A stretch of DNA of 64,000 bases, from assembly GCA_029168955.1 (NCBI GenBank), contig JAPDOI010000172.1, positions 62,001 through 126,000 of the forward strand, given 5' to 3'. The notes beneath the pieces were generated by a model. The model did not search any database. It worked only from the letters and a program-made list of their open reading frames with translations, and was not told where the DNA came from. Below, in pieces: positions 3,151 to 59,735 of the stretch (its first letter is position 1; each line of letters opens with the position of its first letter). The stretch comes from Aplectana chamaeleonis. Lineage: Eukaryota > Nematoda > Chromadorea > Rhabditida > Cosmocercidae. The position numbers were made by a program, and so were the translations under genes.

Positions 3151-4072
3151 ATGCTCCGACGCCTTGACGCTTTGCCGCTGGTCGTCTGCTATGGACGGAG
3201 CCTTACAGCTTCTATCGCGGCGAGAGTGGGCCACAGACTGTTGGCTGGAGTATTTAACGAAGTTCCAGGTTTGGAGCATCGTCATGGGATATACGCTGAG
3301 TATCGGTCATCGTTTTTAGCACACGGTCCTTATAACAACAGTTGTTCACAGCTTCGGAACGCCGTTAACAAAAACTTTCGCTGAGGGTCTTGCGAGCCTC
3401 ATCAGGAAAACCATCATCGTGCGATGCGGCGGCATTACAACCATGAGTAGCTCTTGATAGTGCGTCGTAAACCAATCAGTATTTAAAGCAAAGATTCGCG
3501 GTGGTTGGCGATTTAAGGGCAAAACTCCCGGCCCACGCCTGTTGGCATTTTTCAAGACGGAGACGTCTACAGGCTGCGGCGAGCTTCAAAACGAAATTCG
3601 CAGCCCTTCAGAATCTTGCTTCACTCTCTGCAATTAGCACAATGCCGACTGCGTTTACAGGTCGACAGGGTAGCGACCTGAGAGCCTAAGGCAAACTTAG
3701 CGAGCTGGATTCGTACCCAAAAATGGAGAGCCGTTTGCTCCTACGGGTAGAATAGCTGGTCAAACACCCTTCAAGTGTGTACTGGAATTTCATTTGCTCA
3801 GCTTGAACGACAAGAAAATTTCCTGAACTATAATGCAAGTAGAATTATTGGGCAGCGGCTTAATGCACGCGGGTTACTGCTGCTCGGAGTCATCTTTGCT
3901 GCAAATCTGGAGGGATGAACGGATGGGAATGACTGGAGAGTTCCTAAGCGAGGGAATTCAGTTGGGAGGTTCTCGAAGTTTACCAGCGGTCACTCCTTTG
4001 TACATGACTTGAAAGCACAGAACGCCGGAAAAGTTATTTATTAGATTGCATGCTTTTCTTGAAGATCAGATC

Positions 4073-4192
4073 TATATTTATATTTATATTTATATTTATT
4101 ATACGCCGTAGCCGACCTGCTCATAATCCACAAAGTAGCGAGTTAGAGCCATGAAAATGTATACAAAAACAAATCAAATCAAATCAAATCAA
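4073..4192 (+). repeat. Two microsatellites: (TATATT)n and (AAATC)n
   Basis: A TATATT-type run lies at 4073-4100 and an AAATC run at 4170-4192. The same AAATC motif, on the opposite strand, ends the LINE fragment at 57150. By analogy the run here may be the 3' tail of a 5'-truncated plus-strand LINE whose body is too decayed to read. No gene was recognised between 3690 and 4950. Confidence 0.7.
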
Positions 4193-4966
4193 GTCTCCTC
4201 GCAACGATTTAACTGCCGACCACAAGGCCATGGTCAAATTAGAGAATAATCGAAAAGGCGTCACTAGACAAAGCCAGGAGCCATTAAAGGTTGTGGGGGC
4301 AGTAAGGCGAAAACCCAAGTAGTGATAGAGGCTTGGAACCGTTCAGTGTTTCTTGGTACGGGGAATAAATTCATAGTAATCCATTTCATATTCAAGCTGC
4401 AATGAAAGCGTTTCATATTCAAGCTGCAATGAAGCGACCCTACCCACGCGGCATCCTAGGATACATACTGTCCTCCGACCGCTGTTAGGTATCTGGGTGA
4501 TGTATCTTACGATAATTTCAAGTGTCAGGGGTTAATTAGTGTAGATGACAGGCGGAGACAACTCAGTTCCCAGCTGCAGGCCTATAGCACCAACTTGAGA
4601 TAGAGGGAAACCTGAAAACCGAAGGAAGAATAAAAATATGGCTCCGAGCCCAGGTAGCGATACCCTTATGAGATATGGGATGGACATTCGGTCAGTGATT
4701 GACATAGTTAAATACGTAGCGGTGGACAATATTAAACAGCGAGAAGGCAATATGAGAAGAGGAGCTCGTGCAGTGCTAGGTGATGTAGCCACTGGTAAGT
4801 GAGTAGGTCGCCATGAGACGTCATAGGATAGCATTAGATAATGTCGGTGATGCCGATAACTTGAAAGACATCAATTCTCTTCAGAGCTGTCAGAAAATGA
4901 AACTGTCTGCCACGCCAAACACAGCCCATCACAAACACGAAACCATCAAATGCACTTCATAAGCTC

Positions 4967-7900
4967 CTACGCTTCTGCAATGTTCAAATTAACAATCAAG
5001 TCAAGTTTCTTCAGCCTATTTTTAAAAGTCAAAACATTTGGACAATCTATGACTTCTTGTGACAGCAATTCAAGCCATCTTGATCCCCTGAAGAAAAGTG
5101 AATTGAAAAGTCGATCATGGTTTCGTCTTCTCACACTAATGCACTGAATACCAAATCTCGACGCACGCCCTCTACACGGTCGGAAACACCAGTATTTACT
5201 TGCCTTCAGTTTCAGATCACCCTTGAGTAATTTGAAACAGAAGACCAGATCATTGAAAATACGACGGTGGTAAAGACTGCGTAGTTTAAAGTGACAAAGA
5301 CGCTGCCTGTACGTTCGCAAATTTTGGAGAGAGCTAAAGTCAGTGGAGCATCTAGACATCAAGATCTTCACAAACGTTTTCTGCACTTTCTCAATTTTTT
5401 CTATTAGTTTTTTAGTGAACGGGCTCCAAACCTGAGATCCGTACTCTAGGATTGGTAAAACGTAGGCTTTATAGAGTCTTAACCACAGCGATACGTCATT
5501 GCTTTTGATATTTCTACAAATCGTAAACAAGGTTGAAAAAGCTTTCGAAACCATTCTGCTTATATGTGTCTCAAAGTCAAGTTTTGGATTGAAAAGCACC
5601 CCCAGATCGCGGACTTCTTCCGAGCTTACTAAAACAACATCACCGAAGCTATATTCCATTAGCTGACTTCTCCCAATGTGAAAAACACTAGTCTTTGACA
5701 GATTAACAGGCAATTGCCAAGACGACGACCACTGCATCATGTTGGAGATTGACTGCGAAAGCGCCTCGTAGACCTCTATCTGATTTTCACGGTTGTAAAC
5801 GCCATAAATTTTTATGTCATCCGCATACATTTGCACTTTTACATTAATATGCGTTTTGAGTTTTGCTGGTAAATCAAAAGTGTAAGCAAGAAATAAAAGC
5901 GGTGAAAGAACTCCGCCCTGCGGCACTCCGCTAGGGCAAGGGTAACGCTTAGAGTAAGAGTTGCCCACTTTCACACACATGATTCTATCCCTAAGATAGG
6001 AGCGAATCCACTCAAGAAGTGGCCCCTTGATACCGAGAAAACTGAGTTTTTGTAAAAGTTTGTCATGATTTACTTTGTCAAAGGCTTTAGACAAATCGAA
6101 ATAGATCACGTCTACAGAAGATCCATTGTTCACTGCCACATTCCAGTCATAAACAGCATCGGCAAGCTGGGTGATTGTGGAGGCACCACTCAAGAAACCA
6201 TGCTGCTCTGGGGGAATGAGATTATTGCTGGTGAACCACGAAATTATTTTTCCACGAATGATCTTTTCCAGCACTTTAACAGGAGTTGGAGTTATGCTTA
6301 TTGGTCTGAAATTCGAAACTAAATTGGAGTTTGAAACTTTTGGAATTGCAGTGACTATGGCTTCTTTCCATAACGATGGAACTTCATTGAAAATCAAAGA
6401 GATGTTGAAAATCATAGAAAGAGGTCTACAGAGAGCAGTCGCGCAGTTTTTATAGACAATTTGTGGAATTCCATCGAAAGTTGCCGCATTGGATTTTTTT
6501 AATGATTTCAAAATTTTGAGTACATCGTGCGGGAATACTACTACTTCATCTGGAGAGTTCAAAACTTGATCGCAACAAAGGTGATTACTGAAAACATCAT
6601 CATTTTCAGAGGAAAAAACCGAAGCAAAATACTTGGCTAGTGCTTCCGCTTTGCCCTTATCGTCCATCCATCTGTTACCAGTATCGTCTTCGATTACGAA
6701 GTCATGACACTGAGATTTCAGTTTGAAATTTATAAGCTGGTATATCGCTTTTCTGTTAGGACTGCTACTGGCACGTTTCTCTTGGTTGGCCAAGAATTTT
6801 TCAAATGGCGATCCAGCTCGTCGCAAACCTTCTTGTAGCACGCATGAGATAAAGGTTCAGGCAAAGTGTAAAAAAGGCGATTTTTTTGAGAGACTAGATT
6901 ACATATATGTCTAGGATACTGTACTTTTCTTTCCTGTCTAGTCTCAACTGGAACGAACTGAGCCAAACCCGAGTATACTCTGCGGCAAAATCTTTGATAA
7001 ACATCGTCAACAGTAGTGTAACCTTGGAAAGTTCCCCACCAATCAATGGAGGAGAAGTATGCAGATAATGCATGATAGTCGGCTTTGTTGAAATTTGGAA
7101 ATGGTAATAACGGGATTGATGGCAATTCGCTACAAATCCGGAAGGAAATCATATTGTGATCAGAAGTGGCAGAAGGGGGAATGACCGAGATATTGTCCAA
7201 GATAGGTTCTGAAGTTAAAATTACATCTAGAAACGAAGTGCCCCGAGTTGGTGAGCGCACATACTGGGACAAGTTACAACACTTGAAAAATTCTAGGAAT
7301 TTTCTACTATTCGCATCTCTTCCTACACTCAATACCCAATCTATGTCAAGATTCAGAACTCCTAGCATTATTAGAAATTTATAAGAAAGACAAGAGTCCA
7401 CAAGAACATCAAGAAGTGCTTCGTCATTGGCAGAGGTTGAGCTGGGCGGCCGATAAAGCAAGACTATTCTGAACGTCGACGAAAACTGCGAATCAAAAAC
7501 ATCCAGGACGAGCAAGTTCGATTTAAGAGCAGGGGGGAAAGTGCACGATAAGATGTTCATAGAGCGTTTAACAAGGCAACATATTCCACCACCTCTACTA
7601 CCCCCACGATCTGATCGAAAAATTTTATAGGGAAATTTCGAGATTATTTCGGAATTGGTAATCTTAAGCGCCTTTCACAGTCTGCCGGACGACGCCGTCC
7701 GGTATGTTATAAGATAGGACTGCGGCGTCGGTGAGACCCGCACTGCGGTATCGGCCGACCGACTTCGCAGTGCGGTGAAATCATTGACACGACGTCGGAG
7801 CAAGTTATGACGGGTCAAAACGGGTAGGTTTCGCCTTACATTTTGTACTGATGAGTCGGAACTGACGGTTGTTCACCGCAGCTTCCCTCGCACTGCGGGA

Positions 7901-8069
7901 ACTCTAATAACGTACCGGACGTCGTCGTCCGGCAGACTGTGAAAAGCGCTTTAGATGAGAGCCATGTTTCTGTTATAAAAACCATGTCTGGAGTATGAAC
8001 TGCAAGGAAATAGTGAAGGTGATGAATTTTATTACAAAGGCTTCGAGCATTAAAAAGGAAGCAACTCAA
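4967..8069 (-). pseudogene. LINE ORF2: APE endonuclease plus reverse transcriptase, interrupted
   Basis: This would nick target DNA and reverse-transcribe the LINE RNA. The endonuclease start (FNARSLCNK, VFITETWLSS) lies at 7954-8069. It continues after the inserted MITE with a typical SDRGGSRGGG block, LLYRPPSS and SDHN. The RT follows: FRPIS, QHGFLSGAST, YFDLSKAFDKV, GVPQGGVLSP and the catalytic YADD at 5816-5827. The frame changes at an A5 run at 6796-6800: the endonuclease frame ends with an unrelated tail while the RT frame carries on the family sequence. The open frame has no ATG before the endonuclease motifs and lies just after ORF1, so reinitiation or frameshifting is possible. Non-functional in this copy. 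Confidence 0.88.
7667..7950. mobile_element. 284-bp MITE with TTA target duplication, PIF/Harbinger-like
   Basis: The ends are inverted copies of about 28 bp (AGCGCCTTTCACAGTCTGCC at left, a near-identical complement at right). They are flanked by TTA at 7664-7666 and 7951-7953. Three-base TWA duplications are typical of the PIF/Harbinger superfamily. The interior is GC-rich, has further inverted repeats and no protein. It sits in the endonuclease coding part of the LINE; dropping the element plus one TTA puts the endonuclease back in one frame. Confidence 0.85.
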
Positions 8070-8088
8070 ACCTTGGGGTGCTCCGTGA

Positions 8089-8803
8089 CTAACTAGGCGT
8101 TTCCCGATCTAGGTAGGTCTTGGACGGTAGATCTAGGTAGGTCTTGAACGCGCCGAATTTCGCCGCGGTACACAACCCAAGAACGCGAGAATTTAGTTGT
8201 TTGTTGCGCTCTCGACACTCCTGTCTCATTTCGAACTCTCGCTGACGCTCTTCTCTAGTCATACTTCTACGCACGTAAGCGTCAGGAAAGTTGGACCCAC
8301 GAAGCCGGTGGGTGTTAGCCAGAGCCGTTGCCCAGTACGACCGCGTGGGTAGTACAACTTTAACCAGACGCGGACGTGCGCTCGACTCACTCAAAGCGCC
8401 CATGCGAAACACATCTGATGGCCTGCAGTCCACGTTTAGTACGCTCATAACTTGGTCCACTTTGTTCTCCAAATCAGCCCGCTTCTCCAAGGGAGGCATC
8501 TCCTTCGGAGCCTCAGGGAGACCGGAGATTACTATGCTACGTGCCATTTTTTCCGATTCAATGCCTGCCGAGACCTGTTCCGGAAACTTGTGTAAAAGAG
8601 CACGAACCATCCTCTCTACCAGGGGATCCTTGTTACGTTGGAGTATGGCGTTCATGAGGTCAAGAGCTGACATCTTTGCAATGTCAGCCTCCAGAACCTC
8701 ATTACAAGCCTGAGGATCCCTAGTGGATGATGATTCGAGCTCTCCCGCGACAACTCCGGGACCTTTATTTGCCTGGCGAGTAGTTGGCTTTGACGGTTTT
8801 GAC
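8089..8803 (-). CDS. LINE ORF1 protein (nucleic-acid-binding chaperone type)
   Basis: About 237 residues if translation starts at the MSKPSKPTTR methionine (8803). An upstream methionine 14 codons earlier is less attractive because its extension is hydrophobic and unlike the rest. The N-terminal part is polar, followed by a helical stretch, then a segment starting ARSIVISGLPE and running through RPRLVKVVLPTRSYW, in the style of the RRM-like ORF1 domains of LINEs. The C-terminal part is rich in Arg and Glu (MTREERQREFEMRQECRERN). The LINE ORF1 at 25867 shares the RSIV(I/L)SG and VVLP blocks. It would bind element RNA; this is inference from layout and family resemblance. Confidence 0.72.
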
Positions 8804-9110
8804 ATTATCGTACAGCAGGTGCAATCGAGAAAAAAAATCTCCAACTATCTGGGCAACAACGAAAAAAAATCTCTCCAACTATCTGGGCAACAAAATTTTA
8901 AACTTTGAACTTAGACTGTGTCCGAGAATGTGAGCAGGCGCCGCAACACGTCGAAGTTGAAATGAGAATGATATAAGGTCAAGTACGACCACACCACAAC
9001 CAGAGAGAGCAGTCGAGATCGACCGCACACGAGGCACACCACTCAAAATTCGAATCGCGAATCGAATCTACTGCATTTGTTTGATGATAAAGTGAATTTG
9101 TGGGTGAATT

Positions 9111-9132
9111 CTCAAACTTGGGTAATTAAACC
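9111..9132 (-). other. Spliced leader SL1 sequence at the 5' end of the LINE
   Basis: On the minus strand these 22 bases equal the canonical nematode SL1 leader, from GGTTTAATTACCC to the final GTTTGAG. A chance exact 22-mer is negligible in 64 kb. An SL1 RNA gene would continue with a GT donor, an Sm site and a stem-loop; here the next bases are AATTCACCC, so it is not an SL RNA gene. It lies exactly where the 5' end of the LINE transcript is expected, 307 bases before the ORF1 start chosen here. It therefore looks like a trans-spliced LINE RNA copied back into the genome. Confidence 0.85.
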
Positions 9133-9138
9133 AGATTG

Positions 9139-10380
9139 GTACCACCACCAAGACCTTCTACGAACGGAGTTATTGCTCCTTGAAAAATGCCTATGGTCCG
9201 TAATAAAGCCGGCGATAAACTCTGTTTAGCCTAACTGAATCCATGTTCTGAAAAGGTTTCAGACGAACCGCACATATTTCAGATGGGCGTGTTGTAGGAT
9301 GACGACCTGGGCTAAGTGAAGAAAACCAGCCACAAACAAGATAAGCTGGATCCTGTCAGTCAGACCTGACTGATTAGACTCATTCAGCTCTGACTGAATT
9401 TTCGGCTAGAGAGGAGAGAAACAGCGTGCTAGATCAGGAGTGCGCTCGTGATTTTTCTAAGGAACAAAGGAGCAACTTAAATATTTCAGCAGAGATATCA
9501 GCTTATCGATGTAACAATGCTTATCAGTATCGATATCAACTTTCGCGAAATCACCAGCATTTCATTCATTGCGAAACGGGGCGTCTAGTTGGTCCAGTAG
9601 TGGATGACCACGTACCAAATAGGGAGGGCCGGTTGTTCTCATCATCACAAGTATCATCCTGTCCTCATCATATCATTGATTGGCGAGACCGACCGCTTGG
9701 ATGCAATCTACCGCTTGATACGATTCTGAACTCTTCTGAGTCCTGCCTGAATCATTTCGGGCTCCTCTTATCACCCACTCAGATGATCCTGACTGAGTGG
9801 TGGTTCACTACGGGCCTATATTTTAAGAACGATAATTTGGTGGGCGAGTGGTTTCAGGCCCGTATTTCTCTTCATTCGTACTCGCTGCACGAGGGCGAAC
9901 CAGAATGAAAAGAAAAACCGAGGATGAAGTGGAGATCGAAGGCGAGGTTGGAAATCATCCATCCATATGGCCGCTATAGAGTTCAAAAATCAAGAACAAA
10001 GATGTGGTCCGTGGTGGAGAATGGGCTGGGTTGGGCCCATGGTGGATGTTTATACCTAGCTTGTTTGGAGGAAATGAGAGCTCTCACACTGGAAGTGTTC
10101 TACAGAAGGGACCTTTTGGAAAATAAATGAATATCACAAAAAGCATGTACGAGGGTGTACTTTGATGAAAAGTTTAACCTGAGAATGTCTTCCAAATCTC
10201 TTCTTATTTTGAAGACGGTCCTACGCTGATTCCAGAGATGTCTCAAAAATCGTAAAAAACGTCACAGGAACTGAGTTATGGCTCCTAAAAAAGTCCCAGA
10301 ATTGAGCGGCGAAAGCATGGTGAACGAGTTATCCGAGGCTTGTAATTTCCGTCATTTGCAACGGATTTACAAATTGCGTA
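9139..10380. repeat. Decayed TTAA-family MITE sequence
   Basis: Fragments resembling the TTAA elements occur at 9139-9200, 9890-10170 and 10195-10380, for example GAGTTATGGCTCCT and GAACGAGTTATCCGAGGC. The piece at 9890-10170 resembles 30150-30423. Intact ends were not found. The 160-codon frame at 9426-9908 shows no family resemblance or exon signals and I do not call it a gene. Nothing else was recognised from 9200 to 12060. Confidence 0.5.
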
Positions 10381-12102
10381 ATCCAGGCAGGAAGCCATGA
10401 CGCTGCTTGGCGATCGAAAAGTCGTCTGAGGGGTCGTGACAAAGTGGCTTCTTGCTGCGGGAGCGCCAGGGTGGCTCCTTCCTACATCCCATTTATTCGT
10501 GTCAAATTGAGAGCTCACACTTATCAGGTGTCTACTTCAACATCATACGGTAACTTCAGATTTTGACCCTGAGGTTAGACTGTGCCTTTGAAGGCACCTA
10601 CCAGAGTACAGGTGAAAAGCAGAGTGAGCGCTTGGTCGCGTCCACTTAATTGCTGATTTTGGGCTTTAATTACTGACTCGCCGGTCAAACGGTGGTCGAC
10701 GAGTGACTATTCAGAGGGCGGTCAGTAAAAACACCAAGCCTACGATACTGCTAGGCCAGCCCGCTCACTCATGACGGTTTGCCATTAGCCACTGCCTGAG
10801 ATGATAGGACACTGCACTGCCACCACTGTATTAAGCCATCCGTGAAGTTGAATTTGTAACATCATCATGCTACAGCTCCTCGTCTAATTTCCAGTAATCG
10901 CGTGGCCAGCTTACCACTTACAATGAACCTATGCAGAAGCAGCTGAAGGTTCCCACTTAGGCGGGTCCTGGCTCTAGTGGGAGTGCCAAGGAGCAAGGGG
11001 TACTATCGCTAGTTTCCTATTAGAGGAAGGTGCAATCAGTGGCAGACACTCATTCAAAGCAAATGCAGTATCTGATACTTTTGACAACAGATGCCCCCGA
11101 GAAATCGTAGACACGTCTAGAAATGCTAACGTTTTTCAGATAACGGTAACGAATGGGATAAAAAAGATGGCGAAGGTTTCGAAGGTTAGAATTTTCCTTT
11201 TCTGTGTTTTTATTTTCTATATGTGATTTATATATCTCTTTCTCTAAATTATAGCCTCGGCTTTCGATGGAAACAATCCGGAATTCTGGAATTTGAAAAC
11301 CATCCATTTCCAATCTTAGAGCAGCGCAAAGCCCTACCAAGAAACTGGGGGCCCAAAAAGTCAAAGACAGCAAACGCTCAAAATCGATAACATTTTCATG
11401 GCCTGAATCGAACTCTTGAGCAGCTGGAACTAAGAGCTGACGAAAAACCTGTTAAGCTCGATTGTGACGAGTTACATCGCATTGGTTGAGATAGCGAACC
11501 TATAGGAAAAATATTGAGATTACGATGCCCATGACCTTGTACGGTCTTTACTGAGCACCTAATATGTTGAAAGCGTACAAAAGAATGAGCCAAAGTGCGT
11601 ATGCTACAGGCACTCTCAAGAATAAAACTGCCAAAAAAGTCTTCGTCGAGTTATTCCGACCATTTCAGTGAGTCGCCATGTCAAAAAAAGTGCGCCCTTC
11701 CTTCACGTTTTAGCTGTCGTCCACGCATTCTCGAAACTCCCGTGTAAATAACTGTTTTCTAGCCACGATTGTCATGCTGTGAATACGCGATCCCTGATTT
11801 TGAAGCTATTTCCTCCAAAAGCAGTCGACTCATAATTCCTGAGACGTCCAGTCGATGTTCATCTAAGGCAGCCCAATCTACTCAACCCGAATTCCGGTAG
11901 AGTCAAAGTTTCACCGGACCTAGCCTTTGAAGGCAGCTTACAACGTCGTAAACGTTCTAATGGGACCGTACGACCCCGCTATTTCAACAACTTCTGTGAG
12001 CTTGTATGCTTCAGGTTACCTCACTTGTACTGATAGTCTAACCCTCAAACGTCGATCTCCTTTCAAAAGTGTTCCATTTTGTTTATCCCGACAGCCAGTA
12101 CT

Positions 12103-12130
12103 ATGATGAGATTTGTCTCAGCGGTATTCG
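12103..12130 (+). CDS. Possible first coding exon of the glycine-rich gene
   Basis: A CAG acceptor at 12092-12094 is followed by a short leader and ATG ATG (12103), nine codons (MMRFVSAVF) and a GT at 12131. The resulting intron is 58 bp, normal for a nematode, and its one-base phase matches the next exon. The short distance from the acceptor to the ATG would suit SL trans-splicing. Against it, nine residues are too few for a full signal peptide, so the true 5' exon may lie further upstream. Confidence 0.35.
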
Positions 12131-12188
12131 GTGGTTCAAAACACTTTCTTTTTTCCGTAGCTCAGGAATCCTCAAACTCTTATTTCAG

Positions 12189-12857
12189 ATAGTGGAGATA
12201 AAGCGATTGGTGGAGCAGGAGGAGCTGGAGGCGCTGGTGGAAAAGGAAGTGGTGGCGACAAAAACGGTTCTGGTGGAAAAGGTAGCGGTGGCGACAAAAA
12301 TGGTGCTGGTGGAAAAGGAAGCGGCGGCGACAAAAATGGTGCTGGTGGAAAAGGAAGTGGCGGTGACAAAAATGGTGCTGGTGGAAAAGGAAGTGGCGGG
12401 GACAAAAATGGTGCTGGTGGAAAAGGAAGTGGGGGGGACAAAAATGGGGCTGGGGGAAAAGGGAGTGGTGGCGGCAATGATGGTTCTGGTGGTAAAGGAA
12501 GTGAGGGCGGCAAGGATGGTTCCGGTGAAAAAGGAAGTGGCGGCGGCAAAGATGGCTCTGGCGGAAAAGGAAGTGGTGGCGACAAAGATGGTTCTGGTGA
12601 AAAAGGAAGTGGTGGCGGCACAGATGGCTGTGGGGGGGAAGGAAGTGGTGGAGGAAACGATGGTTCTGGTGGAAAAGGAAGTGGCGGGGACAAAAATGGT
12701 GCTGGTGGACAAGGAAGTGGTGGCGACAAGAATGGTGCTGGTGGACAAGGAAGTGGTGGCGACAAAAATGGTGCCGATGGACAAGGAAGTGGTGGCGACA
12801 AAAATGGTGCTGGTGGAAAAGGAAGTGGTGGCGACAAAAATGGTGCAGGAGGGACAG
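12189..12857 (+). CDS. Glycine-rich repeat exon: 17 units of 12 residues
   Basis: The exon follows a TTTCAG acceptor (12183-12188), begins with two bases of a split codon and ends with one base before GT at 12858. After a short [14 protein letters not shown] lead-in, 17 exact 36-bp units fill 12239-12850. Units 1-6 and 13-17 follow [12 protein letters not shown] with K to Q changes in units 14-16. Units 7-12 vary (NDGSG, KDGSG, TDGCG and similar). No unit gains or loses a base and many differences are at third positions, as expected for a translated repeat. The composition suggests an unstructured, flexible extracellular or matrix-type segment. The other frames across it are shadows. Confidence 0.85.
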
Positions 12858-12918
12858 GTGACTGAAAATGCACTACTCGTAAGGACAAGTCAACAATAGC
12901 CGACAGCCATTGTTTCAG
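12858..12918 (+). other. 61-bp phase-1 intron
   Basis: GT at 12858, TTTCAG ending at 12918. If it were not removed, the frame would meet a stop three codons after the repeat (GGT GAC TGA). Removing it continues the glycine-rich reading frame, which supports splicing. Confidence 0.75.
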
Positions 12919-23329: not shown

Positions 23330-25802
23330 TCAAAACTAAGCAAGGGATTCAAGATGTTCAATCTACGCGTGGTGGATCTGTGGACTCGACGTCATGGAGA
23401 CTCATCAAACGGACATCAATCACTCAATGTGGAGTTTTTTTCTTATGGGGAGTGTAACTGGCTAGCTGCTACACTCCTCTGTATTCTACTTCTACGAGTT
23501 GGCATTGAGAGGAATCGGGGACCGCGCAGCAAGGCATCACGATATCCCTACTGTCACTGCGGGCTATCTGCTCAACGTGCAAGCATTCAATGTGGTGGTT
23601 GCCTTGGCTAGGTGCACCTCAAATGTTCGGGATTGTCCCGCTATGATGACTACACTCATGCTTATTGTTGCATGTCTTGCTCTGTAAATCCTCCCAGGGT
23701 TCCTCACCATAGTCTTAGCATTTATCAACTCAATATCAATGGCCTGTGTGCCAAAATTGCTGAACTCACAGTGTATGTAGATCGCACTCAACCTGATGTC
23801 ATCCTCCTGCGGGGGACCAAGCTTAGCACATCTTCCTCCTCCCTCCCCCGTCACCCCGGTTATTTATCCTATAATATTCCACGTACTTCCCATGGTGGTG
23901 GTATTTCAACACTTGTAAAATCACCTATCCCTTCTCACCTAATTGCTCTACATACTCATGATGTCGTTGAATGTCTTGGTGTTCATATTGTATTACAAAG
24001 TGGCCCCCTGATATTGCCAAAGTCTATATACCCCCATCCACATCCTGTCCCAATGCGTTTGACCCCACAAATTACTTACTTGCTGTTCATGCTGCCTTGT
24101 CATCTAGTTCGGTTGTAGTAGCTGGTAAATTCAATGCTCATCCTTCGTGGTTCTCTCCTATATAGCCTGACAATAGAGGAGAGCTCATTGAATTATTTGC
24201 TGATGATTGTGATATTGTACCGATCAATGAGGATTCTCCCACTCGTCTTCCGGCAGTGGGTAGCCTTTCCTCACCCGACATGACTTTTGTATCATCCTCG
24301 CTAGCTATCTCCTGTAACTGGTCTACCAATGTGGCCCTGGCCAGAGATCATGTTCCCATAATTACGTCACTGGATTTGTCACTTAATAGCTTGCTTGCTC
24401 CGTTTTCTGGCTCTCGTTGCAAGTCTTATTCTAATAATCGTAAGGCCAACTGGGACCTATTCAAAGAGGTGTTGCTCAGCCAGGTGGCCGACTACCCGAT
24501 GAACGGAACAGTCTACGACAAGGAGAAGTTTATCGTCAGTGCCATCGAACGTGCCTCCAAAGCAGCTATTCCTACTGGACGTGTTAGGACTTTTCACCCA
24601 AAGGTGCCCAGCGAAGTCCTTGATCTGATCATCATGAGAGACGACAAGCGAAGATCGGACCCCAATGATCCTACGATACAACAGCTGTCTGACAACATTA
24701 CCGAGCTGCTAGATCAAAACAAGCAGCAGCGCTGGAAAGAGCTTACCGAGTCAATTGATTTTACCGTGGATGCCAGAAAAGCTTGGACTACACTGAAACG
24801 AATTTCTGGCAAAAAGATGAGCACGGACCGCAACATGCTCAAGTTTCCGTCTGGAAGATTCGAGCATGGATACAAAGCAGCTTGTCTGCTCGGCAAAATT
24901 TCACATCTGCATCATCGCCTCGAAATATGCAAAACAGACGAACAATGCGAGCAATCAGGAAGCTCAATCGGCTGGATGTCCCTGCTAATACTCCTTCCGC
25001 CAGAAGATCATCAAGTCGATTAAAAACTTGCGTGCAGAGGGACCTGACGGGATCTCGGCTGTTCATCTCAAGCACCTTCCTGATCCCTACTATGAACTCT
25101 GATCTCATATATTCGTCATCCAGTTCTGGTGTTATTCCGGCGCGCTGGAAACAAGCTGTCATCATTCCCATCGCCAAACCAGGCAAGCCAAAGGGGAAAG
25201 GCTGCCTCAGACCGCCCCATCTCCCTCCTCTCCCCCTTGCCAAGCTTTTGGAAGAAGTCGTCAATCCGCTCCTCCAAAACGCCTTACAGCACAACACTCA
25301 CCAGCATGGTTTCAAGAAGGAGCATTCTTCCATTACTGCCTTGACATCAATCCCCGAGCATATCATCGCTGGATTTAATCGCAAGACTCCGGCTGGTAGA
25401 AGCCTAGTCGTCGCCATTGATATCACTGCTGCGTTTGATAGCGTAAGTATCCCGCTTCTATCGAAATCGGTCCCTTTGAGAGCTGGTGCCCCGCAAGGCG
25501 GGGTGTTGTCCCCTAGCCTGCTTTCGCTATTTCTGTCTGATATTCCTGAGCCACCAACTGGTATTCATCTGTGCCTGTACGCTGATGACATCACCATCGT
25601 TTGCACGGACTCAATTATAGACCGAGCCGCTGCCACCTTGAACACCAAAGTTGCTGACTGTTTCTGCCTCCCAGTCAAGTGTCACACTATGTACAACGGC
25701 TACTATCGAACATCGGCTTCATTCCAAGGTCATCTGGCAGCCGCAGTGGGCAGTCGGTCTTTGCACTGTTCTCCAAGGCCTCCCTCGCCAACCACATCCT
25801 GA
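23330..25802 (+). pseudogene. LINE ORF2 with PHD-like finger, endonuclease and reverse transcriptase, decayed
   Basis: The N-terminal part has a PHD-like zinc finger: YPYCHCG, IQCGGC, a TAG where a Trp is expected (23609-23611), then HLKCSG and AYCCMSC. The endonuclease follows (IYQLNINGL, SHGGGISTLV). The frame shifts near 24000 into one with VVVAGKFNAH, a TAG at 24163 and LPAVGSLSSPDMTF. The RT has HQHGFKKEHSS, VVAIDITAAFDSV, GAPQGGVLSP and YADD at 25578-25589. Only about 16 residues separate FDSV from APQGG, where this class normally has about 60 or more, so an internal deletion is likely. The C-terminal RT region is absent. Confidence 0.8.
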
Positions 25803-36921: not shown

Positions 36922-37539
36922 CTGTAAGGAGAGTAAATAGCAGTTCATGAATTCTACTGATTCTTGAATTCTACCGAAATGGGCGAAATCGGAGACAGCA
37001 GCATCGAAAAAATTAGACAGCTCTAATGAAGGGCGAGGAGATTGGTGTCGGGATAATAGCCGCTGCCGCGGGCGTCGGCCGAAACTGCAGCGTTTCATTC
37101 AGCGCACAAGATTTTACCGCGCGCGGCGTTCGGACGAGTTCGCACGTCTAACTCACACTCATTGTCTTGCGTCGAAACGACGCCAAACTGCACCAAAATC
37201 ATCTGACGAATAAGAGGCGCTCCGGGGTTACTCCTGAATATCAGACGAGCTTCTCTGGGAATGCACGCTTTCTCACTGCTCTCTGTTCAGGTGATCTGTA
37301 CAAGTTCAGCTAACCTGATGAAATTAGCATCATCTTAAAAATGTTCATCATCTGAATGGTGCGCTTACAGATGAGATTCATATCCTTCACCATAGCATCA
37401 AGATAATCTTACAGATCATCTCAACATTTCTTCAGATGATTGTTTAGGATGATCTTAATTTTATTCAGAGGGGGTTTACTACAGCCCACAGTCCAACCTC
37501 AGAATCGAATTTTCGTTTCTCTGCTTATCCTGGATAAAA

Positions 37540-37960
37540 TTTCACGCTGATCACAATAGTGTCTCCAGAGTCGCTCAGAACCCACTGTGAACGGAGTTAT
37601 GGCTCCTCAAAAGTTGTGAATGGGAACTACGAGAATTTCGTGGACGAGTTGTCTCGGGCTTGTTTTTTCTTGTCACTCGCAATCATCGCTCTGGAGCAGA
37701 CTACATTATAAAGGTATACCGATAACAAATGGAAGAAGCAGGTTTTGACATAAGTCCATGGTGTGTCTCGTCCTAACTGAGCTCGAAAGCTCTGAAGTGG
37801 GCGGAGCAAATGGGTGCCGATTTAGTGGGCGGAGAGAACGGGTGCTCGATTTTTCTCGCATACTCTGAAGTGTTGAGATTACGCGTTTGGCAAGGTTGCC
37901 ACACACACCGGCCGGAGCCTAATATCAATTTTTACTCACGAGCTTGGACTGTACCTTTAA
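37540..37960. repeat. Family E-like repeat
   Basis: TTTCACGCTGATCACAATAG at the left, GAACGGAGTTATGGCTCCTC and GTGGACGAGTTGTCTCGG inside, shared with 30003-30423 and family A. Ends are degraded. 37100-37540 holds a short inverted, TGATC-rich stretch (37270-37460) and no gene. Confidence 0.55.
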
Positions 37961-39078: not shown

Positions 39079-42000
39079 TCAGTCCTTATTGATAGGGTTT
39101 AAACCCCATATTGAGTGTTGTAGAAAATAAACGGGGGTGTGTATACAAGTCTGTTGGTACCTGCTCGTTGGTGCCCCTGCTTCTACTGAACCCAGCAGAC
39201 GTTTGAGTGTACACAGGGAACGTTCGAGCGATATAGCGTGCACAACTATATCGCGAAAGTATCCCGCACATTGCATAAAGGTGTCGCCGTCCGGCACACT
39301 AAGGCCTCTGGTCCATAACACCTTAGGATCCGTACCTAGGGAGTCATGGAGTCTTTGGCCACAAGCCACAATTTCGCCACCCTGAACTGTCGATCGCTGT
39401 CGAGTGATATCCAAAAAACTGCGCTATCCAGACTTCTGAGCTATTTCCATGCACCGTTTGCTGCTTTGCAGGAAACCCGCCTCAAGGATAGACCCGTCAT
39501 CAGCGTCGGAGAGTACACCATCTACTGCGGTAACGCTGACGATAGGAGAGTGGGAGGCTGTGCAATAGCTGTAAGGAAGGATTTCAATGGTATGGTCAAG
39601 GAGTTCGGCTCAACGTCGTGTCGGAATGCATTCGTACGACTGCGGGATCTGAGAGGATTCAATCTGTGGATAGTGAGTGCTCATGCGCCCACTGAAACCG
39701 CCGAACAAATCGAAGGATGCGTTTTATGAGGAACTCAATACGTTGCTGGCCAGGATACCTTGTCAACATGCTGTTGTCGTGGGATTGACGCAAATGCGAA
39801 GATGGGACTTGATCAGGAATCCGAAGTACTCGATAAATGGTTCTGCAGTGGAGCAAACATCGGACAATGGCTACCGCCTTGTCGACTTTTGTGAACGCAG
39901 TGGTCTGATTATTGCATCGACATTCAAGAGGAATCATCGCCGCCATCAGCTTACGTGGCAGGGACCAACCCGGCTATCTCCAGAAGAGCAGCGGAAGCGG
40001 AAGATGACAACTTTGAAACTACAGCTTGACTATGTCCTAACGAGGAATATTCCAGTATCGGACATTCGAAGATCTAGAGCTGTGTGGGATGTCGCATTCG
40101 ATTCGGATCACCGTACTGTTCTGTTGAACTTCACTGCGAGGATTCATAAGAGGAAGCGAGGGGCTCAGCCTCCCCAGAGGATTGACATGACAAGTCTCAG
40201 AGATGAAGAGTGCAGAAGGAATTTCCGACAACGCGTTTCTATTCACATCGGAGTACGGACTAAGAAGAAACTTTGCGACGCGGATTCTTTTGTCAAGTGC
40301 ATCCAGGACGCTTCGAAAGAGGCACTCCCGGTTGTACAGCCTAAGAAGAAGTTCGCCTACGTCTCAGAAGAAACAACATCTACCTACAACAGAGTATGTG
40401 CTCTCCGAACTGCAGGAAACTTCGTGGAGGAGAAGCGTCTGAGCGTCTGGAGGAAGTTGCGTCGGCAGCTTCAAAGTGACTGCGAACGAGAGTGGACGTG
40501 TAGAGCTAAGGAGTTCGAGAAGGCTTGGGAGGAGAAGAATCCGAAGAAAGCCTACACGTTGCTGCGACAGTATAGCGGGAAGATGAAGAGATGTTCTCCT
40601 GTCTTGAACACTACCAATGGAGTTGCAGTTGGTGATGCGACGCTGCCAATATGGAAGGATTACTTTAGTTCACTACTGAATCGTCCAGCGCCATCAGTAC
40701 CTGAGCTCCCGCATGTTCAGAGAGCACATTACGATGTCAGTGAGGAACCGCCGACTGAGTCTGAAGTTTTGGATTGTGTCCGGAAAATGAAGAATGGAAA
40801 GGCAGGTGGAGATGACAACATCACTGCTGAAATGCTGAAAGCTCTTCCTCCGTCTGGGATTCGTGAAATGACCAACACCATCCGTGCCATATGGATGAGC
40901 GAAAGGATACCCGATTCGTGGAGACATGCGATCATCGTACCTCTTCACAAGAAGCTATCCGTCACGGATCCTAAGAACTACAGAGGAATCTCTCTACTTC
41001 GTGTCATGTACAAGGTTTTAGAACGTATCATTCTCGAGCGACTTATCAAACATCGTGAAGGAACGACCAGAGATGAGCAAGCCGGTTTTTGACCTGGAAG
41101 ATCGACCATCGACCAAGTGTTCGTCGTGAGAAGAGTAATTGAATCGTGGCAGCGGTATTCGAAGCCATTACAGCTTGCTTTTCTGGACTTTGAAGCCGCG
41201 TTCGACTCTCCTCATCGTGATCGATTGCTCAATGCTCTGCGAGCAGATGGAGTCCCGGAAAAGTATGTTCGGTTAATCGAGGACATGAACAAAGGAACAA
41301 CAGCAGCAGTTCGTACACCTGTCGGATTTACGTCAGCTTTTGAGGTGAAAACAGGAGTAAGGCAAGGAGCCGTTGCAGGACCTTTTCTTTCAACTTCGCC
41401 GTTGATGACATCATGCGTAGAGTTGCAGAACAGTTTCCTGCGGATGTGATCCTAACACCATCAGGACGCTCCTTGTCGACCTGGAGTACGCCGACGACAT
41501 TGTGTTATTCGCTGAAAACAACGCAAAACTGCAAAGGATTGTGAACCTCGTTTCGAAGTATGCCGCAGCCTATGGACTTCGTCTTCGTCCCGACAAATGC
41601 AAGCAGATGTGGGTCTCTCAGAGGCCTTCAACTGGAGTTTGTGTGGACGGACAATGTATCGAACTGGTGGACGATTTCTGTTATTTGGGCTGTTTGCTGA
41701 AGAACGATGGTAGTTATGCAGCGGATATTCGACAACGATGTGCGAAAGCTACGTCTGCATTCAATTCTCTAACCAAGTGTTTGTGGTCTACCACCATCGC
41801 GAAGAAAGTCAAGTTGCGCGTCTACCTATCCGCTATTCGCCCTATCATGATGTACGGATCGGAGACGTGGGCAGCACCGAAAACGCAGATGGAAAGGTTG
41901 GATTGCACGGAGAGGAAGCTTTTTAGGCGTTTGCTTGGATATTTCTGGCCGCGTGTATGCCATAACGAAGACCTTTACAAGGAAATCGACGCCTTCCATA

Positions 42001-42180
42001 TCAACGCTTGACACGAGAGAGGTGCCAACATCTCCCAACGCCAACTCAAGCGTCAACGGAAGGTCGTCTTCGTTTGTTCGCGCATAATTTAAGGAGACCG
42101 CCAGATTGCCAGGACGGCACGTTTCGGTAAAGATGAGGAATGATCGCGTCAGGCGAAAACCAACCGGCCTACACAAAAAC
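39079..42180 (+). pseudogene. RTE-like non-LTR retrotransposon, nearly full length but broken
   Basis: A presumed 5' UTR (39079-39345) is followed by an APE endonuclease starting MESLATSHNFATLNCRSLSS (39346) with LQETRLKD and VSAHAPTE. A one-base shift near 39705 moves to the frame of DAFYEELN through LQLDYVL and SDHRTVLL. The RT has KMKNGKAGGDDNI, IIVPLHKK, NYRGISLL and DEQAGF, then TGA at 41090-41092 where Arg (CGA) is expected. PGRSTIDQVF, FLDFEAAFDS, GVRQGAVAGPF follow. A missing T near 41388 and another shift near 41465 precede YADD at 41487-41498. The tail ends in SETWAAP and ERKLFRRLLGYFWPR. Autonomous movement is impossible. Confidence 0.88.
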
Positions 42181-45845: not shown

Positions 45846-46975
45846 ACGAACGATGCTGCCTTTCTTGAAAACTGGTTTGACAAAACCTAGGCGCCATAAT
45901 GAAGGCACCTCTCCGTGAAGAAGGCACCAGTTAAACCAAAGTGTCAGCACGGGAGTCAGACCTAAGGCCTTTTTTGAGGAGTATGTAAGGAATTTTGTCC
46001 GGCGATGTTGAGTTCGAAGCGGTAATTTGACCAATGTTTCGTGAAGTAGCTCACTATTAATATCCAAGTAGTCAAGTTCACCCGTTGTGAAAGAAAATGG
46101 ATTGATCTTATCATTTGTTTGGTTTTTGCAAACAGATTTGAAGAATGACGCGAAGGCTTCAGCCTTCTCCACCTCAGACTCACAAGGTACTCCGTTAGCG
46201 TTAAGTAAGGTACCGATTGAATTCATACGACTGATTTTATTGTTGACAAAATTATAAAAAGCTTATGGATTAGTAGAGATAGCGATTTTCTCTTCTTGTT
46301 TGAGGTTTAAGAGTGCCAGTTCCCGCTTGAGTTTCCTGGAAAAACACAAGTACTTGTGTCTTCCAATAGAAAAGCGCGCATTGTACGGTCTATAATCTTC
46401 AAGTGCCGAATTGCGAGTTCTAGCTGGATATTTACTGACTGAATTTTTTTTGAGAGCGAATCGGATCAAATTTATTGATGAGGTCATTGCAATGCTCCAC
46501 ATAAATGCTGTAGCCCTCATCTGCAGTCTTGCACTGATCAATTAGCTGACGCCAGTTATTTCTAAGGAGATTTTGACATATTGCATCGTAATTGGCTCTT
46601 GGAAAGTCCTGATAAAATAAGTCAGAAGGTGGGTTGGTTGTATGTACAGCAAGATTGAAGGAAACAACAAGTGGTCGGAGGTAGAGAACGGCGGAAGGAC
46701 TCTCACGTCTTCTACAATAGTTTCGTTGTTAGTTATAATAAGGTCCAGTATAGTAGAGCCATGCGTAGGGGTGGTGACGAGCTGGGTGAGGGCACGCTCA
46801 TTGCAGAAATCGAAAAAGTCGCGAACAGAGCCGGAAGTTGTATTCGTATTATGTCTATTCCAAACAATAGAGGGAAAGTTTAAGTCACCTGAGATTAGAT
46901 TGCTCGTATTTTCCGGAATTGTGTCCGAAATGTGAGCAAGTGCATCTCGGAAGGGGGCTGCAGAACAACTAGGAC
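45846..46975 (-). pseudogene. CR1-like ORF2: endonuclease C-part and start of reverse transcriptase
   Basis: Downstream of the Penelope insertion the frame reads FRDALAHISDTIPENT, ISGDLNFPSIVWN, QLVTTPTHGSTILDLI, then a shift near the SDH position. Later blocks are EKAEAFASFFKSV and GEVPSLWRLGFVKPVFKKGS, the first RT motif. The remainder of the RT is absent. Confidence 0.75.
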
Positions 46976-48240
46976 TTCATGTCCAAGATAGAAAGTCCAG
47001 TGCTTGATCGTCGACCTGTGCTATATTGCCGCTACATTGACGACGTTTTCATCGTCTGTTCAACGCAAAAAAACTTGACGCCTGCTTCAACCTACTCAAC
47101 CATCAATCGCAAAACATAAAATTTACGCGAGAGGATCCACGGGAAAATTGGCTCTCTTTCCTCAATGTAGAAGTTCGTTTGGAGCGCGGTTTCTACACTC
47201 CATGTCTGCGCACACGTCTAGTACAAAACGTGCAGTCATTAAGAGCTTATACAGCACAGCGAAAAGGGTTTTGTCCGACAGCATGGAAAGAGCTGCCTCA
47301 CTAGAGCTAGCGCGAAAAGTTGCGTTATCGAATGGATACCATCCAGGGGGCCATCGTGCCGGCAGACCGCCCAGGGAGCACGGCGCCGCAACATCGGACA
47401 ATACTGCGAAAGTTCCTTTCTGCCTTCCCTTTGTCTCTGACGCTTTTAGCGCAGCGGTCCGCGCGGCCCTAAATAAATACAGTCTTGAAGACGCGGTCAG
47501 GATTGTTAAAACTCCGCCACCTAACCTAAAACAACAGCTGATCCGGAATCGGTTGTATGATCGATTTTGTGCTACCCCGGATTGCGTAGTATGCCCATTT
47601 GGACGCGAGGGAGACTGCATGACGTCAGGGGTGGTCTATGTTATCGTGTGTGGTCTTTGTCAAGACGAATATATTGGGGAAACAGGGCGTTTTCTATGCA
47701 CACGCGTTAAAGAACATCTTGCGGGCCTAAGGAAATCCAACCCTGCCACGCCGTTGGGTACGCACCGTAGACTGTGCCATGAGGACCTGGAGTTTGAGGT
47801 TACCGTTGAAATTCTAGCGCGGGAGCCACAAACTGCGGCACGCAAGACTCTCGAAGCCTTTTGGATAACCGCCAAAGATCCTAAAATGAACAGGAAAGAG
47901 GAGTGTCTTGCCATAACAGCTGAGCTCGCCCCGTTTCTTGACCTCTGTAGATTTTGACCTCAGCGTCTTCATGTCAAGGACGCGCGTCTTCTGACCACCC
48001 ACTGCATCTACCACTTATGGTGCCCACTGCTAACTTGGCTCGGCGCGAGTAAGGTAAGCATTCTGTGATCGTGTTTTTGCGTTTTTAAGTACAAATCTTG
48101 TGGTTACTTCGGACTTTGTTCTTGTAATTTGAAAGGTTGCTTGGGAGGATATGTCGCATTTGTTCTTGATTCTTCCAGGTTCCGACGAAGGCGATATAGC
48201 CGAAACGTCAACCGAATAAATCTACTAACGTCTTGGATTT
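46976..48240 (+). pseudogene. Penelope-like element: RT end plus GIY-YIG endonuclease
   Basis: The 5'-truncated element begins in the RT (VLYCRYIDDVFIVCSTQ; catalytic YIDD at 47033-47044) and continues NWLSFLNVEVRLE. The frame changes near 47200, apparently with a short deletion, then reads STKRAVIKSLYS, the linker with CATPDCVVCPF, and GVVYVIVCGLCQDEYIGETG, a GIY-YIG domain with YIG at 47670-47678, followed by RVKEHLAGLRK. Stop at 47955-47957. The 3' end carries CGAAACGTCAACCGAATAAA near 48200. Orientation is opposite to the host LINE. Confidence 0.85.
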
Positions 48241-48698
48241 GGCTCTACTAATATCTCACACATACTAACGACCAACCATACCAAGATTGACAGAAAGTCG
48301 TACATGGAACTAGGACTGCGATAGAGCAAGGTCATATAAATAGCATGAGGAGTAGATTTTAAACATAAAATAAAAGATTGACCATAGGGTAAGAAATTTC
48401 TCGAAGAAATGAGATCATGTGGAAAACTGTGATTAACAAGGGTCAATATACCGCCACCTATTACACTGCCTTCCCTGTCACATCTGTAAATGTCATATTC
48501 AGAACTTGGGGTCAGAGTTGAGTCATGAATGTTATCAGGCTTACACCACGTTTCGGTAATGAAAACCACTAAGGGATCAAAAAAGAGAATGTGGTGTAAA
48601 TCGGGAACTTCCTTACACGTTATTACGAGAGATCGAGCGTTAAAGAGCAGTGCCTCACAAAATGAGAATTCCTGATATCTGGATTGAACGGTTGCCAA
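48225..48698 (-). pseudogene. CR1-like ORF2: N-terminal endonuclease
   Basis: LLFNARSLVITCKEVPDLHH, VVFITETWCKPD, IYRCDREGSVIGGGILTLVN and TLLYRSPSSMYDF match an APE endonuclease as in the LINE at 4950. The end is lost at the Penelope junction. Only a distant relative of the first LINE, judging by the residues. Confidence 0.78.
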
Positions 48699-48747
48699 AT
48701 CGCTCGAAATTTTCTCGTCTAAACGCTCCGTTGGAGTGGTCCGCTAC

Positions 48748-50110
48748 CTAGGGCTGTGATGAGGAGCATGGGGCATTTTGCAGCGACCGAATTTCCTGAG
48801 TTCTCCTGCTGGGGCCCTGCGAGCTACCCAACACGTCATCACCGGTTGATTGGCTCAGCGCCGCGCCTGCCATGGGACGTTTGGGTAGATCACGTGGAGT
48901 ACTGAGTTTGACAATGTAAAAATCACGTACCACAAAGACCAATTTACCTTCCCTTGCGTTACGGTCACCAGCCTCTTTACGCAGCACTCTGTCCAGATTT
49001 AACTCCTCCGCAGTGTAATCTCTACGTGCGAAGGAGTGGACAAATTGCTTTGTGAGACTTTGGCGTCCGCTCCGCATGTGGGCAAGGAGAGAATTGCGCA
49101 AATTCTGACTGGGCAAGGAAATATTCATAATTCGGCCACGACTGTCAGGCTTGCGAGAATCGCCGACAGGGTGCCGATGAGAAGTGATTTGGCCGTTCTC
49201 AAACTCACGTATCAATTCTTCATCTCCGGAAGTGTTGACAACCTCTTTCAAGATCTCGCGGTCAAATCGGCGTGTCAACTCCTCACTCGACTGCTCATCG
49301 ATTCCGACCCATGTTATCCTCCTCGCCTTCTCATCGATTTTCTGCGTATAAGCCTTAAAGGCAGTGTTCACGATAAAAAATGTGTTTCAGTTTCCACCAG
49401 GAATGGGTAGTGGAAGGACACACTGTAACGTTGACGTCGAAATAACGCATGAAAACGAGCCAGGAAGAGCCCCAAAAGAACCCGAAGTTGCAACTTCGAG
49501 CGCATTGAAAACCCCAAAAGCGCATCACACGCCCACCGACGTGAACAAATGAATGCTCGAGATCGTGAGATGAGCGATGATTTTAGATCATTAGCCCCGT
49601 TATTCCCATCATTCTCAACTTCTCTCTTTACTCAGGTCAACTCGCACACATCGGCTGCAAAAGACGGAAGTTACAAACCTCGGACAACTCGTCCACCATG
49701 TTTCCTTAGCTCAAATTTTGAGAGACCATAACTCCGTTCCCAGAAGGTCTTGTACGTTTTCAGAGACATCATTGGAATCAGTATGGGGCTGTTTTCAAGA
49801 TAGGCGGAGAAACAGAAAAACGATTTTTATCGTGAACACTGCCTTTAACCTTAATCATTGTCCAGTAAAGAAGGCTTCTATGGGTTGACGGTGAACAATT
49901 TACTGCACTTAATTTCGCCTCTAAATCGGACAAACGTGCTAGGATTGTTTCTTGCGTGCTCTGAATGTTTTGAACTTGTGAGAGAAGACGCTCAAGCGCA
50001 TCACCGACAGTATTTGCATTGTGCAGGAATATAAATCAAACCTTTCTATCAACTTACTGGCCCACAAAGGCATTGCCTTTGCATCAAAATCATTTTCACA
50101 AGACTTTTTG
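48748..50110 (-). pseudogene. CR1-like ORF1, split by a MITE
   Basis: Upstream part: AMPLWASKLIERFDLY, then a coiled coil (ALERLLSQVQNIQSTQETIL, ARLSDLEAKLSAV). After the MITE: KAYTQKIDEKARRITWVGID, RGRIMNISLPSQN, RSGRQSLTKQFVHSFARRDY and EGKLVFVVRDFYIVKL, the nucleic-acid-binding part. The frame on both sides agrees if the MITE and one TTAA are ignored. A frame change is also needed near 50030. The apparent start MNTAFK belongs to the MITE end. Confidence 0.7.
49359..49844. mobile_element. TTAA-flanked element, family A (486 bp)
   Basis: TTAA at 49355-49358 and 49845-49848; ends AGGCAGTGTTCACGATAA and complement. Same length as the copy at 59246-59731 (486 bp) but inverted. Sits in the LINE ORF1. 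The 60-62-codon frames inside are shared with other copies only because the DNA is shared. Confidence 0.92.
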
Positions 50111-58710: not shown

Positions 58711-59245
58711 TTCACGTCACTTGGTACTTTTTTCTTGTTTAAAATTGAGAAGCCAGCTAGAGGTCCTTGGCTCCGTTCCAACCAATGGAGTCGTTCAGCG
58801 TATGGTACTTGACATAGAAGGATTACGCTGAAATAGTATGTTACAAAGACTTGTACCCGAAGACGGATGAATACCGCCGTCTACGCAATAGTACTCCAAA
58901 CAGCGTACGGTAACGATTGCCACAACGGCATGAAATGATGATATCATTTGCATTTCTCTATCAGACCGACCGACTTAAACTCTCAAATGAAAGTTGAAAA
59001 GTATTGTTTAGCTTTGTGGCAATAGGTACCGCACGGAACTTTGCGTCTAGTCTACGCAGTAGTTGAATAAGATGGCTCGTTCGCCTGCAAACAATGTTCG
59101 GTACTATCCTGGACCGGAAGGGACACCCAGGATTCAAGACAAAATGAAATGAATGGACCAAATGAAATGAATGACGGATTGATTACTCTGTCAACCAAAA
59201 TACCTGATTATCTCTGGTGCAAACCTAGTTGTACGGGCCACTTAA

Positions 59246-59731
59246 AGGCAGTGTTCACGATAAGAATCGTTTTTCTGTTTCTCCGCCTATCTTGAAAACG
59301 ACCCATTGCTGATTCCAATGATGTCTCTGAAATCGTACAAGACCTTCTGGGAACGGAGTTATGGTCCCTGAAAAATTGAGCTACGGAAACATAGTGGACG
59401 AGTTGTCCGAGGCTTGTAACTTCCGTCTTTTGCAACCGATGTATGCCAGCTGACCTGAGTAAAGAGAGAAGTTGAGAATGAAGGGAAGAACGGGGCTGAT
59501 GATTGGAAATCATCGCCCATCTCACGATCTCGAGCATTCATTTGTTCACGTCGGTGGGCGTGTTTTGCGCTTTTGAGGTTTGCCTTGAGCTCAAAGTGGC
59601 ATCTTCGGGCTCCTTTAGAGCTTTAACTGGCTCGTTTTCATGCGCTCTTTTGACGTCAAAGTTACAGTGTGCCCCTCCACTACCCATTCCTAGTGGGAAC
59701 CGAAACACATTTTTTATCGCGAACACTGCCT
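59246..59731. mobile_element. TTAA-flanked element, family A (486 bp)
   Basis: Left TTAA at 59242-59245; at the right, CTAA (59732-59735) is shared with the next element. Same orientation as 57897 and inverse of 49359. Confidence 0.9.
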
Positions 59732-59735
59732 CTAA

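Follow-up and report, generated by a model that had tools for sequence, protein, structure and literature searches.

The window, that is, the whole 64-kb stretch of DNA that was analysed, carries on its minus strand a LINE with a spliced-leader exon at its head. Read from 5' to 3', SL1 is followed by a 305-nt leader, ORF1, ORF2 (an APE-type endonuclease and a reverse transcriptase, RT), and a 3' region of approximately 0.9 kb. The features of the element and its upstream flank are as follows.

9149-9188, minus strand: fragment of a dispersed MITE-like repeat, read as flank; 88% identical to 59338-59376
9111-9132, minus strand: SL1 spliced-leader exon, 22 nt, exact match; AATTC follows, with no GT donor
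8806-9110, minus strand: leader of 305 nt between SL1 and the start of ORF1, read directly
8826-8893, minus strand: tandem duplication of 34 bp within the leader, found by repeat analysis
8089-8805, minus strand: ORF1, without a Pfam match and identified by homology
7950-8180, minus strand: ORF2 start with the initial portion of the endonuclease, aligned with residues 1-73 of the related protein P0010
7661-7956, no strand assigned: MITE-like insertion of 296 bp with 54-bp inverted ends (91% complementary), splitting the endonuclease
6799-7665, minus strand: remaining endonuclease region (Exo_endo_phos_2), aligned with P0010 residues 73-363
4967-6841, minus strand: RT portion of ORF2, with an open frame of 624 codons and 59% identity to the related protein P0009
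4073-4099, minus strand: (AAATAT)n-like run, read directly and proposed as the 3' tail of the LINE

A pattern search of the 64-kb window placed an exact SL1, GGTTTAATTACCCAAGTTTGAG (22 of 22 nucleotides), at 9132-9111 of the minus strand, in sense relative to the LINE and upstream of ORF1 and ORF2. At up to three mismatches this exon was the only match in the window; at up to seven there were six, the other five of which carry 6-7 mismatches. None of 100 dinucleotide shuffles of the window contained any SL1 match at up to three mismatches. Given this uniqueness and the empty shuffles, a chance match was ruled out, and the exact 22-base SL1 that the earlier note had reported at 9111-9132 is borne out.

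The LINE and its relatives

The leader contains one upstream ATG, which opens an ORF of two codons. Eight relatives of ORF1 were found, and all five named ones belong to Nippostrongylus, Ancylostoma or Haemonchus; identity to relatives from these genera was 41-50%. The C-terminal end of ORF1 is matched by its relatives in another frame (residues 195-220 of P0001 align at 8188-8096), and the endonuclease piece at 7950-8180 overlaps this end and has two stop codons in the first part of the aligned frame. The alignment with P0010 is interrupted at residue 73: it ends there on one side of the insertion at 7661-7956 and starts again from that residue on the other side. The TAA read by eye on both sides of the insertion may be its target duplication. 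ORF2, which contains the Pfam domains PF14529 (APE-type endonuclease) and PF00078 (RT), changes frame at approximately 6800. Because the end of ORF1 is out of frame, ORF2 changes frame and the endonuclease carries a 296-bp insertion, the copy is broken, and the LINE that bears SL1 is thus disabled. Its earlier description as almost complete is fair for its length but not for its state. At the 3' end, the (AAATAT)n-like run at 4099-4073 is a candidate for the LINE tail, proposed rather than proven, and a second candidate is formed by GATTT units running near 4190-4170.

The assignment to the LINEs follows from two ORFs with an APE-type endonuclease and then an RT (PF14529 and PF00078, with ORF1 recognised through homology). 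The six best relatives of the RT are 53-59% identical to it, and the best named ones, among the best 120 of 832, belong to Ancylostoma ceylanicum, with 57% identity for the top one; among the matches listed, the closest named protein relatives of the LINE are thus strongylid nematodes. Identity of the RT to the stork proteins P0051 and P0094 is 33-34%, to a Schistosoma protein 34% and to a C. brenneri protein 31%; the solved L1 and R2 proteins matched the RT weakly (60 and 50 bits). The LINEs of birds are CR1, so the identity to the stork proteins hints at this clade, albeit weakly, and we use "CR1-like" as a working label. The earlier term "CR1-type LINE" accordingly stands as far as the two ORFs, the APE-type endonuclease and the RT are concerned, but its clade part is a weak hint, since the Schistosoma protein is equally close. 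Searches of public viral contigs and genome contigs with the SL1 pattern gave 0 and 0 matches, and ORF1, the RT and their alignments found nothing in public viral contigs. A separate search with the RT alignment yielded a single distant RT, at 27% identity, from a rumen MAG.

Several other retroelement sequences lie in the window. A second LINE of the same broad kind, badly decayed, occupies 45855-49143 on the minus strand, with a weak ORF1 match at 49143-48880, ORF2 pieces at 48665-48258 and 46898-45855, and no SL1 at up to three mismatches. A third LINE remnant at 57529-58703, also on the minus strand, consists of RT pieces (58703-58425 and 57834-57529) around a copy of a MITE-like repeat. 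On the plus strand, an RTE-like element lies at 39677-42008; Necator americanus accounts for all but three of the best 120 of its 269 relatives, with identities of 44-79% among the matches listed. Together with the relatives of ORF1 and the RT, this makes the host probably a strongylid nematode, perhaps close to the hookworms or one of them. A LINE fragment at 24166-25799, plus strand, has an Exo_endo_phos_2 match below the cut-off as well as an RVT_1 match.

Surroundings of the SL1 exon

The bases directly 3' of SL1 are AATTCACC. The first of them is A, so that no GT donor follows the exon, and the first GTR lies at nt 62 from the SL1 start. The earlier statement that the exon lacks a splice donor was therefore correct. 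An Rfam scan of the whole 64-kb window at the gathering level gave no match. Scans with E up to 10, covering 8900-9400 and 9000-9140 around SL1 and 3600-4300 around the 3' end of the LINE, contained no SL RNA or 5S family, the models having been run without a positive control. A weak match to mir-1954 at 9301-9374, minus strand (24 bits where the gathering score is 99; local-scan E 0.0074), is probably due to chance.

One Sm-like motif of the RAU3-6GR type, AATTTTGA, lies at 9050-9043, its first base being nt 83 counted from the start of SL1; strictly, it contradicts the claim that there is no Sm site. The window contains 124 such motifs over its two strands (approximately 0.1 per 100 nt per strand), and at this frequency the presence of one here is near chance. 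The absence of an SL RNA stem-loop was upheld, as the 123-nt stretch has no Rfam match and its predicted fold is no more stable than that of shuffled sequence (z -0.36; 67 of 200 shuffles at least as stable). An SL RNA gene, with a GT donor directly after the exon and an Sm site plus stem-loops, was thus not recognised at this locus; what we found is a genomic SL exon outside such a gene, with 22 of 22 nucleotides, no donor and no Rfam match to SL or 5S RNA. The earlier note had named a decayed SL RNA gene as the finding that would overturn its reading, and the check for one turned up neither a donor nor an Rfam SL match.

The region 5' of SL1 contains a fragment of a dispersed repeat, whose copies in the window are as follows.

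59242-59735: long copy of the MITE-like repeat
49355-49848: long copy of the MITE-like repeat
57936-58253: copy of the MITE-like repeat
2207-2528: copy of the MITE-like repeat
10197-10369: distant copy of the MITE-like repeat
37501-37663: distant copy of the MITE-like repeat

The fragment at 9149-9188 covers nt 17-56 upstream of SL1, leaving 16 unassigned bases between the two, and has further matches at 49728-49752 (92%) and 2313-2352 (78%). The two long copies are 89% identical over 494 bp; their inverted ends of approximately 38 bp (82%) give the repeat the look of a MITE. Its core, ATAACTCCGTTC..AGAAGGTCTTG, is visible as shared sequence in the alignment with the six copies. One copy (57936-58253) lies between the two RT pieces (58703-58425 and 57834-57529) of a decayed LINE, and for those at 59242-59735 and 49355-49848 the distance to LINE pieces is approximately 0.5 and 0.2 kb; around the copies at 2207-2528 and 10197-10369, no other LINE piece is found within about 1 kb. 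Because its copies occur both near or inside LINE fragments and away from them, the repeat behaves like a separate element, and 9149-9188 is therefore read as flank and not as part of the LINE. LINE sequence upstream of SL1 is unsupported, as this fragment matches a core that is found in other settings. That SL1 stands exactly at the 5' end of the LINE, as had been claimed, agrees with its sense orientation and with the dispersed-repeat fragment 16 nt away, but this boundary is one that SL1 itself defines.

The 5' flank of the LINE matched five of the six repeat copies better than all 200 shuffles did. In an empty-site check, a search of the 3' flank for the remainder of the repeat did no better than shuffles against any of the six copies. 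A search for a target-site duplication gave nothing convincing. The end of the 5' flank shares at most 6 nt with the 3' region, CAATCT at 4048-4043; this match is not adjacent to the tail, and the same hexamer arose in 117 of 2000 shuffles.

Other repeats were noted in the window. Positions 1-633 form a tandem array with a 133-bp (or 266-bp) unit and GCGCCGCGAAGCGGCGC palindromes. At 12233-12846, plus strand, approximately 17 copies of a 36-bp unit lie within an open frame (12042-12896) and encode glycine-rich repeats. Two near-identical open frames of 106 aa, at 791-1111 and 1561-1881 on the minus strand, are 770 bp apart and represent a recent local duplication.

Origin of the leader at the head of the LINE

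We consider it likely, with a probability of approximately 0.72, that a trans-spliced RNA of this CR1-like LINE, reverse-transcribed to its 5' end, explains the SL1 at the head of the copy. The transcript would have had a 3' splice site immediately 5' of AATTCACCC and would have gained SL1 by trans-splicing, like many host mRNAs. The capped, SL1-bearing RNA would then have served as template for a LINE reverse transcriptase, presumably the element's own, and first-strand synthesis that reached the first base of the RNA would have yielded a new genomic copy headed by the complete SL1 exon. We infer the trans-splicing and the copying to the cap; what is seen directly is an intact SL exon, a break exactly at the donor position, a LINE in sense and no recognisable SL RNA gene. 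The break follows nt 22 of SL1, the point at which the SL RNA is cut in trans-splicing, and therefore fits a trans-spliced RNA that was copied to its first base. This reading, already offered in the earlier note, has in its favour the 22-nt exon without an SL RNA intron, and no test contradicts it; against it stand the single LINE copy seen with SL1, the lack of a target-site duplication and a 5' boundary that is set by SL1 alone.

An unlikely alternative is a chimaera, in which SL1, with or without part of the leader, came from a template-switched host mRNA or from an older SL1-bearing retrocopy, and the RNA of the LINE was never trans-spliced. LINE reverse transcriptases can switch templates, host mRNAs make up most of the SL1-bearing RNAs in a worm, and the boundary of the LINE falls somewhere within 8806-9132, where the leader is without a known relative. 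However, a switch to an SL1-bearing mRNA would have brought host sequence with it; the leader shows no recognisable sequence of this kind, which makes such a switch somewhat less likely. A jump to free SL RNA would have copied the 3' part of that RNA, which is not recognisable with Rfam; both the copying of free SL RNA and an insertion into an SL gene are disfavoured because either would leave intron sequence.

Very improbable, in our judgement, is a history in which SL1 was fixed long ago at the 5' end of the LINE family and is now ordinary LINE sequence, with transcription from or before SL1 and no trans-splicing today. A full-length copy would then require only end-to-end copying, and SL1 is preserved at 22 of 22 nucleotides in an otherwise damaged copy. 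Nothing argues directly against such a history, and even then the sequence would have originated as a retro-integrated leader. The remaining alternative, a decayed SL RNA gene or one entered by the LINE (through NeSL-like insertion or with an SL-RNA-derived LINE head), could appeal to the intact exon and to the Sm-like motif that begins at nt 83, but we reject it as scarcely credible, because no donor lies 3' of the exon, neither the window nor either end of the LINE gave an Rfam match to SL RNA or 5S, the motif is near chance, the fold is no better than that of shuffles, and an intact exon beside an unrecognisable remainder would be an improbable pattern of decay.

If the LINE RNA was indeed trans-spliced, the SL1 seen here may reflect either the normal life cycle of the family or an accident of one transcript with an outron derived from upstream DNA; one SL1-headed copy is a clean example and not yet evidence of a rule. 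On the earlier proposal, trans-splicing may in addition serve to separate or cap ORF1. The stronger version, that the family trans-splices in its normal life cycle and uses the TTTGAG of SL1 as its splice acceptor in the following round, thereby renewing the 5' end exactly once per cycle, appears quite doubtful. An outron from any upstream DNA would then be exchanged for SL1 at the same place, and the LINE would possess a movable cap and a self-renewing mark of full length, both supplied by the host. The splice acceptor consensus of worms is TTTTCAG. The end of SL1, GTTTGAG, agrees with it at five of seven positions and has a poor G at -3; TTTTGAG within the leader (9048-9042) agrees at six of seven, and two AGs in the upstream flank at five of seven. 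The use of SL1 as an acceptor is therefore a weak proposal, the leader AG surpassing it and the flank AGs equalling it.

Comparison with known systems

The ORF2 described here carries the APE-type domain PF14529, and no recognisable SL gene surrounds the insertion, which sets the element apart from NeSL. NeSL elements possess a restriction-like endonuclease and no APE domain; neither this arrangement nor an insertion inside an SL RNA gene was found here. The earlier distinction from NeSL by virtue of the APE endonuclease thus holds, with PF14529 present and no SL RNA match at either end of the LINE. NeSL-1 and its relatives are described as targeting SL exons (PMC4640811), and they resemble the present case in that SL1 is physically attached to a non-LTR element of a nematode.

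The closest parallels come from reports of leaders that were integrated together with mobile elements. A count in Brugia malayi gave 316 elements bearing an SL1 signature; 120 of them are not associated with SL RNA genes or 5S rRNA, and 60 of these 120 lie no more than 1 kb from PAO elements. The conclusion drawn there is that expressed elements acquired leaders, which then integrated together with them (PMC7181701). Both cases have SL1 outside SL RNA genes beside a nematode retroelement, and the same explanation is offered; unlike the LTR-type PAO elements, with many copies and SL1 up to 1 kb off and sometimes on both sides, ours is a single APE-type LINE that begins at SL1 (PMC7181701). For Schistosoma mansoni, 32 additional SL loci have been described, six of them merged with transposable elements, and the authors suggest trans-spliced and retro-transcribed elements while cautioning about assembly chimaeras (PMC5832876). 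An SL exon encoded in the genome and joined to a mobile element is common to both, but that host is a flatworm with a 36-nt leader (PMC5832876).

At the RNA level, SL trans-spliced transcripts of Heterodera glycines overlap LINE/CR1 repeats (3.4% of 3,013 repeat-associated genes), which likewise associates CR1-type LINE sequence with SL trans-splicing; the difference is that a genomic SL at a LINE 5' end is not among the results in the portion of that report used here (PMC6362198). Dinoflagellate retrogenes carry relic DinoSL sequences, left when trans-spliced RNA was reverse-transcribed, and share with our LINE a leader tag in the DNA; those relics mark host genes and have lost their first seven nucleotides through renewed trans-splicing, whereas the leader here is complete and unrepeated (PMC12014239). 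The trypanosomatid L1Tc/ingi elements are also LINEs in a trans-splicing host, but their Pr77 is reported to drive unspliced, translatable transcripts (PMC8190864). In the strongylid Haemonchus contortus, SL1 was found on 37.4% of genes (PMC7652881).

Among the open-licence papers searched, none was seen to describe a CR1 LINE with SL1 at its 5' end, and in the literature found, the capping, translation and 5'-end copying of LINEs in trans-splicing animals are little documented. If the LINE RNA is trans-spliced, the leader left in the DNA would tag full-length insertions, and counting SL1 outside SL RNA genes would offer a cheap genome-wide assay of elements that use host trans-splicing. The retro-integrated leader is not a new idea, and the SL1 at the 5' end of this element is a LINE example of a kind already published.
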